Part shown: in pieces, positions 2,127 to 4,436 of the stretch | Numbering within the stretch: position 1 is the stretch's first letter | How the letters are laid out: each line of letters opens with the position of its first letter | Assembly: GCA_011526265.1 (NCBI GenBank) | Contig: WTJN01000094.1 | Location: forward strand, 6,359-53,053 | DNA length: 46,695 nt | From: Candidatus Arcticimaribacter sp. | GTDB taxonomy: Bacteria; Bacteroidota; Bacteroidia; Flavobacteriales; Flavobacteriaceae | Direction: 5' to 3' | Notes under the pieces: model-generated | The model's database searches: none | Seen by the model: only the letters and a program-made list of their open reading frames with translations | Told to the model about the DNA's origin: nothing | Translations under genes and position numbers: made by a program

Positions 2127-2891
2127 TTATAGTTGGTTCTCGCTCAACCAGTGGTGTAGAATTCTGTTGAATTCATCGGGATGCTCCATCATGGGGGCGT
2201 GCCCACATTTTTCAATCCAGTAGAGGCTTGAAGCAGGTAAGAGTGCATTGAATTCGTCAGCGACGTCAGGCGGAGTAACACCGTCGTTTTTCCCCCAGAT
2301 GAGGCAAACAAGATTTTTCATGCTTGGGAGATCGTTGGCCATGTTGTGTCGAATGGCACTTTTTGCGATCGCAAGCGTTTTGATCAGTTTGTTACGGTCG
2401 TTGACAGTTTCGTAGACTTCATCCACAATCTCTTTGGTCGCTACAGCAGGGTCATAAAAAACATCTTCACTCTTTTGTTTGATATAGTCGTAGTTCCCTC
2501 TTTTGGGATAGCTTTCGCCCATGCTGTTTTCATAGAGCCCGGAGCTGCCTGTCAAAATCAAACCTTTCACCATTTCAGGGTAGGTTTTGGTGAAGATCAA
2601 ACCAATATGTCCACCTAAAGAATTGCCCAATAAAAGCACATTTTTTAGCCCTTTGAAATCAAGAAAAGCTTTCAAGTATTCAGCAAATGCCTTGACCGTT
2701 GTTTCTTTTAAAGGTAAATCATAGATGGGTAGCTCAGGAATAATCACCCGATATCCTTTGTTTGGGAAATAATTTTGGACGCCTTCAAAATTGCTCAGTC
2801 CTCCCATGAGTCCGTGCAAGATGACGAGTGGTTGTCCTTCACCTTTATCGAGATAAGTATAGTTAGATTCTTTGGTCAAGATGTCTTTCAT
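2127..2891 (-). CDS. Alpha/beta-fold hydrolase
   Basis: This is a 254-residue soluble serine hydrolase of the alpha/beta fold. The order is typical: oxyanion segment HGLMGG, nucleophile elbow GNSLGG with the catalytic Ser, acid residue in WGKNDGVTP and catalytic His in CGHAPMMEHP. No signal peptide is visible, so it is probably cytoplasmic. The substrate cannot be told from sequence; esterases and C-C bond hydrolases have the same layout. I chose the ATG at 2891 because the upstream TTG at 2921 overlaps the -7 element at 2919-2926. The gene precedes engB by 8 bp and is divergent from mraZ. Confidence 0.8.
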   Translation of the reverse strand: MKDILTKESNYTYLDKGEGQPLVILHGLMGGLSNFEGVQNYFPNKGYRVIIPELPIYDLPLKETTVKAFAEYLKAFLDFKGLKNVLLLGNSLGGHIGLIFTKTYPEMVKGLILTGSSGLYENSMGESYPKRGNYDYIKQKSEDVFYDPAVATKEIVDEVYETVNDRNKLIKTLAIAKSAIRHNMANDLPSMKNLVCLIWGKNDGVTPPDVADEFNALLPASSLYWIEKCGHAPMMEHPDEFNRILHHWLSENQL

Positions 2892-2918
2892 GCCTGTTGG
2901 GCTCAAATCTTTAGCCGA

Positions 2919-2926
2919 CAAATATA
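2919..2926 (-). promoter_or_regulatory. -7 promoter element of the hydrolase-engB operon (TATATTTG)
   Basis: On the minus strand this reads TATATTTG, an exact match to TAnnTTTG. Predicted transcription begins near 2912, about 20 nt before the ATG at 2891. No good -33 TTTG is found upstream. The element decides against the TTG start at 2921. Confidence 0.5.
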
Positions 2927-2990: not shown

Positions 2991-3036
2991 CGTGGTAAAA
3001 GTTATCAACAAAGTGGTATTAAGTGGTAAAAAGTGG
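2991..3036 (+). promoter_or_regulatory. MraZ-box operator array upstream of mraZ
   Basis: Three identical AAGTGG hexamers begin at 3011, 3021 and 3031, exactly 10 bp apart. A fourth related CGTGGT at 2991 keeps the same phase with one turn skipped. MraZ is known to bind direct repeats of about this period in front of its own operon: TGGGN with 5-nt spacers in Escherichia coli and AAAGTG-type boxes in mollicutes. The array ends 11 bp before the -7 element and covers the -33 region, so bound MraZ should block RNA polymerase. The repeats are seen; binding is inferred. Confidence 0.8.
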
Positions 3037-3047
3037 CTTTTTACATT

Positions 3048-3055
3048 TATATTTG
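3048..3055 (+). promoter_or_regulatory. -7 promoter element of the dcw operon (TATATTTG)
   Basis: TATATTTG matches TAnnTTTG. It lies just after the MraZ-box array and 28 bp before the mraZ ATG at 3083, predicting a short leader of about 20 nt. It is the only convincing promoter I see for the following 15.7 kb of plus-strand genes. Confidence 0.65.
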
Positions 3056-3082
3056 AAAATACAAACCATACAAACTGTTTGC

Positions 3083-3544
3083 ATGCAGCATTTTATTGGG
3101 ACATATGAATGTAAAGCAGATGCCAAAGGGCGCATCATGATTCCGATGTCACTAAAAAAGCAAATGCATGAGGGCTTGAATGATGGTTTTGTGATCAAAA
3201 GGGCGGTGTTTAACGCTTGTCTGGAGCTTTATCCCATGAAACAATGGGAGGCGTTGATGGAAAAAGTGAATGCCCTGAATCGTTTCAACAAAAAAAACAA
3301 TGACTTCATTCGGCGCTTCACTGCTGGGGTCCGACTGGTCGATATCGATGCTACTGGGCGTCTCTTGATTCCTAAAGATTTGATGTTGCATGCAGGTATC
3401 GAGCGACAAACCGTGATTTCTTCGGCTGTAAATATTTTAGAAATATGGGACAAGCAGCGGTATGAAGAAGCGATCAGCGAGGCGGCACTAGATTTTGGTG
3501 CGCTTGCGGAAGAAGTAATGGGCGATAAAGATGATCAAGACTAA
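3083..3544 (+). CDS. mraZ: Transcriptional regulator MraZ
   Basis: MraZ is a DNA-binding protein with two AbrB/SpoVT-like halves that form a ring-shaped oligomer and repress the dcw operon. Both DxxxR signatures are present in the 153-residue product: DAKGR in the first half and DATGR in the second, each followed by an IP turn (RIMIP, RLLIP). The ATG at 3083 gives the family's usual N-terminus (MQHFIGTYECKADAKGR). The earlier in-frame start at 3023 lies within the operator repeats and upstream of the -7 box, so I rejected it. The gene heads the dcw cluster and overlaps rsmH by 14 bp. Autoregulation through the repeat array just upstream is very likely. Confidence 0.95.
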   Translation: MQHFIGTYECKADAKGRIMIPMSLKKQMHEGLNDGFVIKRAVFNACLELYPMKQWEALMEKVNALNRFNKKNNDFIRRFTAGVRLVDIDATGRLLIPKDLMLHAGIERQTVISSAVNILEIWDKQRYEEAISEAALDFGALAEEVMGDKDDQD

Positions 3545-4436
3545 TTACCATCTACCGGTTTTGTTGCAGCCGTCTGTCACGGCCCTCATCACCGACCCCA
3601 ATGGTATTTATGTCGATGCTACTTTTGGAGGAGGGGGTCATTCGCGTCAGATTCTTCAGCAATTGGGGCCACAGGGGCGTCTATTTGCTTTTGATCAGGA
3701 CGCTGATGCTGTATCGAATGTTCCAGAGGACGACCGTTTTACTTTTATCGAGGCTAATTTTCGTGACATTGAGCGGTATTTAAAGCTGTATGGCGTAACC
3801 ACGATCCATGGAGTTTTGGCCGATTTTGGTGTTTCGTCCCATCAATTCGATGCCAAGGAGCGAGGTTTCTCCATTCGCTTTGATGGCCCTCTGGATATGC
3901 GCATGGATCAAACTGCTAGCAAATCGGCCATCGATATCGTTAATGCGTATTCATTGGAAGAGCTCACACAACTCTTCAAGCTGTATGGAGAGGTAAAAGG
4001 CGCCTATCGAGTGGCGGAACAGATTGTCGCGACCCGGCAGCATCAAAAAATCGAGACCACCTTTGCTTTGATTGAGGCAGTACGGTCCCTCATTCCAGAG
4101 CGCTTTCTCAATAAAACATTGGCGCAAATATTTCAGGCCATTCGTATTGAAGTCAACGATGAGTTGAGTGTGATTAAAGATTTGCTTCTCGCCTCGGCAA
4201 GGGTATTGGCTTCTGAAGGTCGGCTGGTTTGTATTTCCTACCACTCTCTGGAAGATCGTTTGGTGAAGCATTTCATTCGTGAAGGTGTTTTCGAAGGGGC
4301 GGCCCCGCAGGATTTTTATGGGAATCGTCATTTGCCCTTTAAAAAACGAGGAGGAATGGTGGCGCCAGATGCCAAAGAAATAGAAAAAAATAAACGTGCA
4401 CGGAGTGCCAAAATGCGCATTGCAGAAAAAAGATGA
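3531..4436 (+). CDS. rsmH: 16S rRNA (cytosine1402-N4)-methyltransferase RsmH
   Basis: RsmH (formerly MraW) methylates the exocyclic N4 of C1402 in 16S rRNA with S-adenosylmethionine. The 301-residue product has the N-terminal HLPVLLQPSV segment and motif I VDATFGGGGHS at residues 28-38. The C-terminal half carries CISYHSLEDRLVKHFI, typical of the family. It is the second gene of the dcw cluster, overlapping mraZ by 14 bp and ftsL by 4 bp (ATGA). The length is normal and all expected blocks are present. Confidence 0.95.
   Translation: MIKTNYHLPVLLQPSVTALITDPNGIYVDATFGGGGHSRQILQQLGPQGRLFAFDQDADAVSNVPEDDRFTFIEANFRDIERYLKLYGVTTIHGVLADFGVSSHQFDAKERGFSIRFDGPLDMRMDQTASKSAIDIVNAYSLEELTQLFKLYGEVKGAYRVAEQIVATRQHQKIETTFALIEAVRSLIPERFLNKTLAQIFQAIRIEVNDELSVIKDLLLASARVLASEGRLVCISYHSLEDRLVKHFIREGVFEGAAPQDFYGNRHLPFKKRGGMVAPDAKEIEKNKRARSAKMRIAEKR

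Follow-up and report, generated by a model that had tools for sequence, protein, structure and literature searches.

An array of GTGG boxes before mraZ in Candidatus Arcticimaribacter is very probably an MraZ operator and lies over the -33 region of the predicted dcw promoter

Introduction

MraZ is a widespread regulator of cell-division genes, and the sign of its regulation is not settled across species. Several MraZ structures are on record (1n0e, 9qlg, 9sx6, 9qlr), and the protein of Mollicutes is an octameric toroid according to the accessible text of PMC7761207. As far as the accessible text of PMC8475190 goes, the Mollicutes site consists of AAAGTG[T/G] direct repeats and is found in M. 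genitalium at mraZ only; MraZ acts there as a repressor of the cluster, as concluded from a deletion, the E. coli protein is cited as a repressor as well, and MraZ overexpression in M. gallisepticum was accompanied by raised FtsZ. In Burkholderia cenocepacia, the site is made of four 7-nt repeats with 3-nt spacers and a repeated GTG motif (PMC7761207, accessible text). For E. coli K-12 we read the mraZ promoter directly and found GTGGG at -44, -34 and -24 from the start codon, downstream of a TTGACA...TAAACT promoter whose hexamers were assigned by eye. The MraZ box itself is already known, and among the matches listed in a search of open-licence literature no MraZ operator was described in Bacteroidota, which is weak evidence of absence. 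Here we analyse such an array in the window, a 46,695-nucleotide stretch of a Candidatus Arcticimaribacter contig (WTJN01000094.1).

Methods

The upstream sequences of mraZ from the window and its relatives amounted to 236, or 229 once 7 identical ones were removed. The near set contains the window and the best 80 of 189 confirmed loci (MraZ identity 68-86%), and in these 80 the closest relatives of the window MraZ belong to Candidatus Arcticimaribacter and other Flavobacteriaceae. The family set was put together from 30 automatic, 40 hand-picked and 6 own-family loci from the order search, less 7 duplicates, mraZ being found in 117 of 120 family genomes. For the order, class and phylum searches (mraZ present in 52 of 60, 74 of 80 and 94 of 99 genomes, respectively), the 30 best-scoring loci of each were taken, of which 29, 29 and 27 were new. 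L236 and L247, which came from the phylum search, were counted as class, and the remaining phylum loci make up the other-class set. Relatives in all sets share kinship, so the counts are not independent.

Results and discussion

A single three-box array lies at the head of the dcw cluster

The forward strand of the window carries AAGTGG at 3011-3016 (box 1), 3021-3026 (box 2) and 3031-3036 (box 3), in the exact 10-bp spacing that a first-pass annotation of this DNA had described, and boxes 1 and 3 read AAAGTGG, as it also said. It turned out that the window contains one match to AAGTGGN4AAGTGGN4AAGTGG with up to three mismatches, for a mean of 0.03 in 100 dinucleotide shuffles. Lone AAGTGG is not enriched in the window (30 found, 26.9 expected) and exact GTGGN6GTGG pairs are close to chance (2 found, 1.1 expected), so the signal lies in the triple spacing. 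The host genome (G000; 2.07 Mb, 82% complete) has a single copy of the exact GTGGN6GTGGN6GTGG, at mraZ. A scan of the same genome for further MraZ targets gave no second exact array, 5 places with one mismatch and 100 places with up to two, the last being near the control (85).

The array sits in the promoter region of mraZ (3083-3544, forward strand; PF02381, 8.8e-30; TIGR00242 above cut-off), whose start codon is the ATG at 3083 and whose product is the predicted regulator binding the array. It is followed by the next gene of the dcw cluster, rsmH (mraW; 3531-4436, forward strand; PF01795, 4.7e-89), and then by ftsL and a PASTA transpeptidase gene. On the upstream side there are gldB, engB and a divergent alpha/beta hydrolase gene (2127-2921, reverse strand; PF00561, 3.4e-22), which has its intergenic region in common with mraZ. 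The MraZ encoded by the host genome contains both D-x-x-x-R motifs, and D-x-K-G-R and D-x-x-G-R are conserved in the MraZ sequences.

The array is kept together with mraZ

The first-pass annotation had proposed to look for 10-bp-spaced GTGG boxes before mraZ in Flavobacteriaceae, and relatives where mraZ has the same place indeed keep them. The exact three-box array is present in all 81 near sequences, and the counts go down to 63 of 69 in the family, 13 of 23 in the order, 15 of 31 in the class and 8 of 25 in other classes. For two or more boxes at 10 bp, the counts are 81 of 81, 67 of 69, 21 of 23, 25 of 31 and 22 of 25, respectively. Positions further upstream of the array carry little information in the near set, and with flanks so weakly conserved, the boxes are not accounted for by shared recent ancestry by itself.

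To see how the array goes with its regulator, we compared genomes with and without mraZ. In 19 of the 21 mraZ-bearing genomes (20 hand-picked family genomes and G120), the exact array is present once, always next to mraZ. The two others are G059 (L135), whose third box reads GTGC, and G025, where mraZ is present and the exact array absent. An exact array was found in 3 of 22 mraZ-less genomes (4 places, with no mraZ nearby), where the absence of mraZ is that of a profile search and some of the genomes are incomplete or very small. rsmH was matched in 16 of these 22, the other 6 being uninformative on the cluster, and none of the 16 rsmH neighbourhoods (about 1.5 kb on each side) contains the array or mraZ. 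Across genomes, the array is associated with the presence of mraZ (Fisher p = 3.6e-7, kinship ignored). Apart from these exceptions, then, the array is kept where mraZ is present and missing at rsmH where mraZ is absent. With its single exact copy at mraZ and its presence in 19 of 21 mraZ-bearing genomes, the array is, judged from sequence comparison, very probably an MraZ operator, as the first-pass annotation had claimed for the dcw promoter.

Two explanations without MraZ were weighed against these data. Phased A-tracts might curve the promoter, with GTGG incidental, as the 6-base spacers, repeated every 10 bp, have an A+T content of 98% in near and family arrays. We regard this as extremely unlikely, because GTGG at 10 bp is also seen in E. 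coli and other classes, with many spacers there that are not A-tracts, and because none of the 16 rsmH neighbourhoods in mraZ-less genomes has the array. Alternatively, the boxes could belong to another regulator, acting either on the dcw cluster or on the divergent hydrolase gene. This gene shares the intergenic region in 145 of the 146 near and family loci of sufficient length, and the accessory TTATYAACAA element described below accompanies it in the order and class sets (26 of 30 loci with the gene vs 9 of 24 without; p = 0.0004, kinship ignored). However, other-class loci keep the boxes although the divergent gene was found in 0 of 25 of them, and the boxes match the known MraZ core, so another regulator is very improbable too.

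One box core with a lineage-specific following base

Like the window, the E. coli mraZ promoter has three GTGG cores at exact 10-bp steps, and the period is thus the enterobacterial one, in agreement with the first-pass annotation. Since GTGGG occurs there three times at 10 bp, TGGGN and GTGG are the same box. The Mollicutes site also consists of direct repeats and shares the AAAGTGG core of window boxes 1 and 3. The contrast that had been drawn between a mollicute type of box and the enterobacterial TGGGN therefore does not hold, and what the array presents is direct repeats with a GTG(G) core at a period of about 10 bp.

The difference from E. coli is in the next base, which is T instead of G. 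T follows GTGG in 82% of near and 91% of family boxes; T and G follow in 49% and 35% of order boxes and in 61% and 31% of class boxes, and G follows in 85% of other-class boxes, as in E. coli. In the sequences compared, the T is a lineage-specific change, and the suggested lineage-specific box variant is right to that extent, while its GTGG core is common to E. coli. We also searched for MraZ residues tracking the T/G change by mutual information in 36 order and class sequences, but no contact residue came out and the signal was inseparable from kinship.

The array stands over the -33 region of the predicted promoter

The main sigma factor of Bacteroidia reads an unusual promoter. A scan with the sigma-70 consensus gave no promoter at the array, the host group using another consensus. 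Instead, a -7 promoter element, TATATTTG (TAnnTTTG), is located at 3048-3055 on the forward strand, after the array as the first-pass annotation had noted, and is recognised by its conservation and by the position of the F. psychrophilum element. The GTGG of box 3 starts 15 bp before it. In the F. psychrophilum start-site map, the -7 element spans -12 to -5 (PMC9723704, accessible text), which puts the predicted transcription start near 3060 and the GTGG cores at -47 to -24. The predicted -33 place lies under the array, in line with the coverage claimed earlier. The promoter type of Mollicutes differs from that of the window, and no TTATYAACAA element is mentioned in the accessible text of PMC8475190.

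This geometry is widely kept. The distance from the start of the last GTGG to TAnnTTTR is 14-16 bp in 81 of 81 near, 65 of 67 family, 13 of 21 order and 15 of 25 class arrays (2.1, 1.8, 0.5 and 0.2 in shuffles), and the strict TAnnTTTG follows the last box within 30 bp in 80 of 80, 65 of 67, 11 of 21 and 6 of 25. As for the arrays without TAnnTTTR at 14-16 bp (8 of 21 order, 10 of 25 class), six of the eight order arrays (L177, L179, L180, L182, L183 and L191) show an element like TATAAATTTG, or a similar one, a turn farther downstream, after a degenerate box (both by eye), and in most of the ten class arrays the promoter was not placeable.

The three, and probably four, GTGG boxes stand on about one helix face and so could be read as direct repeats by neighbouring subunits of the MraZ ring. 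As the boxes occupy the -33 place, bound MraZ would most likely keep RNA polymerase off the promoter: it would cover the -33 region and shut the polymerase out, and mraZ and the genes behind it would be repressed in a negative autoregulation. To this explanation as a whole, an operator at the predicted dcw promoter where MraZ blocks the polymerase and regulates itself negatively, we assign a probability of about two in three. That the array acts by repression, taken as a separate point, also seems probable from its position.

The same region can be read in the opposite sense. TTG at the -33 place is present in 1 of 81 near, 0 of 65 family, 0 of 13 order and 1 of 15 class promoters, for 11.5, 9.9, 1.8 and 2.3 in shuffles. 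Such depletion in the near and family sets, with the nearly fixed distance from array to -7 element, would suit a promoter without a -33 element of its own, where bound MraZ acts as an activator and replaces this element by touching RNA polymerase; an operator upstream of the -7 element is compatible with that as well, and so is the raised FtsZ of M. gallisepticum (PMC8475190, accessible text). On the other hand, TTG is depleted in part because the boxes themselves occupy the place, and according to the accessible text of PMC8475190 MraZ is a repressor in M. genitalium and is cited as one in E. coli. Activation is a doubtful reading, though the strongest of the rivals, and repression is preferred.

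The array is on the other side of the promoter in sister classes

The placement between -10 element and start codon that is seen in E. coli was not found here, since the arrays of the window and its near relatives are upstream of the -7 element, the window array standing over -33. Of 22 other-class arrays, 21 are preceded by TTGACW within 60 bp of the first box (1.1 in shuffles; several of the 22 belong to the same families), the usual distance being 30 or 36-40 bp, and 0 of 22 are followed by TAnnTTTG within 30 bp of the last box. At such distances a -10 element would fit between TTGACW and the array, and the other-class array would then be downstream of the promoter. This is the placement of E. 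coli, and of B. cenocepacia too, where the repeats lie downstream of the -10 box and over the transcription start, unlike in the window (PMC7761207, accessible text). By these promoter motifs, the array is upstream of the -7 element in most Bacteroidia arrays and downstream of the promoter in sister classes. Neither this difference nor the TTATYAACAA element is mentioned in the first-pass annotation, and among the matches listed from open-licence literature neither was described, which is weak evidence of absence. With the same boxes on opposite promoter sides within one phylum, the sign of MraZ regulation becomes directly testable.

A second promoter with TTATYA as its -10 was also considered for Bacteroidia and is not favoured, as few arrays there have TTGACW in the 60 bp before the first box (6 of 80 near, with 2.7 in shuffles; 0 of 67 family, 1 of 21 order and 0 of 25 class arrays). 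Besides, TATATTTG is found again on the reverse strand at 2919-2926, 28 bp before an ATG at 2891 (by eye), and is likely the -7 element of the divergent hydrolase gene; from this position, the TTG start of that gene at 2921 is probably wrong and 2891 is a possible start.

An accessory element precedes the array in Bacteroidia

The accessory element TTATCAACAA (TTATYAACAA; 3002-3011, forward strand), which was recognised by its conservation in relatives, starts 11 bp before the box-1 core. TTNTYAACA stands 11 bp before the first counted box in 78 of 81 near, 53 of 67 family, 10 of 21 order and 10 of 25 class arrays, and in 0 of 22 other-class arrays. It is at 12 bp in 6 further family arrays, at 21 bp in six further order arrays, where the skipped turn holds a degenerate box (AGTC or AGGC), and at 21-22 bp in four class arrays. 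The element may be part of the MraZ contact, the site of a second regulator or a polymerase contact. If it has a binder of its own, it would be a new input to the expression of cell-division genes in Bacteroidia. A two-part operator could even be imagined for Bacteroidia, where the MraZ array replaces the -33 element, a second factor binds the class-specific TTATYAACAA one turn upstream, and MraZ, by itself or together with this factor, is needed for dcw transcription, with a sign opposite to that in sister classes; we consider this unlikely.

TTATYAACA is not above the reversed control genome-wide (52 vs 64 in G000, 87 vs 116 in G120), and the extended form AAACTTATYAACAA has 35 matches in 60 family genomes vs 35 in the control. 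By position, at least 12 of these 35 matches are at mraZ, in a hand count for which mraZ places were listed for part of the genomes. The consensus of the DnaA box is the 9-mer TTATCCACA, from which TTATCAACAA is one base off, and such boxes cluster at the origin. A DnaA box is a possible reading of the element, to which the genome-wide counts lend no support. The 140 kb around the change of G+C skew in G120 showed no cluster of boxes, with a skew that was coarsely sampled and does not identify the origin. The DnaA of this lineage (L262, L263) has GKRDHATVLHA in its DNA-binding region, i.e. DHAT, where E. coli DnaA has DHTT, and from these residues its box preference may differ.

Several TTATYAACA copies were also seen together away from mraZ. 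In L261 (G120), two copies 20 bp apart (2295-2323) are located upstream of a putative HU-type DNA-binding protein gene, named by eye (ORF 2329-2685 or a later start). In L260 (G000 contig 40), three copies lie within 93 bp (2677-2769) of an A+T-rich stretch, flanked by ORFs that resemble, by eye, a periplasmic peptidyl-prolyl isomerase and a short secreted protein.

A fourth box occurs in a minority of relatives

A candidate fourth MraZ box, CGTGGT, is located at 2991-2996 on the forward strand, where the first-pass annotation had placed it in phase with the others. Its position is correct, but its GTGG core (2992-2995) is 21, not 20, bp upstream of the box-1 core at 3013, so it is outside the 10-bp register. 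GTGG at the 21-bp offset is conserved in a minority, 22 of 80 near and 17 of 63 family arrays, for about 0.05 and 0.12 expected. As to the room once suggested for a fourth contact, a fourth box exists in a minority of relatives and at an offset of 21 bp, and the host genome probably has four GTGG boxes instead of three. In the other-class set, L239, L240, L245 and L246 have an extra GTGG 20 bp before box 1, with a -10-like TACATT within the skipped turn between the two.

Opposite-strand pairs upstream of mraZ

A GTGG-N6-GTGG pair on the opposite strand, 135-491 bp upstream of mraZ and facing the divergent side, was found in 7 of 31 class and 6 of 25 other-class loci, where block shuffles give 0.38 and 0.20. 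The near set has 0 of 77, the family set 1 of 69 (L136) and the order set 1 of 23 (L187). Some of these pairs may be coding sequence, and such a pair is possibly a second MraZ operator. The class loci are L208, L212, L214, L222, L227, L229 and L232, and the other-class loci, six that are probably related, are L237, L239, L240, L245, L248 and L259.
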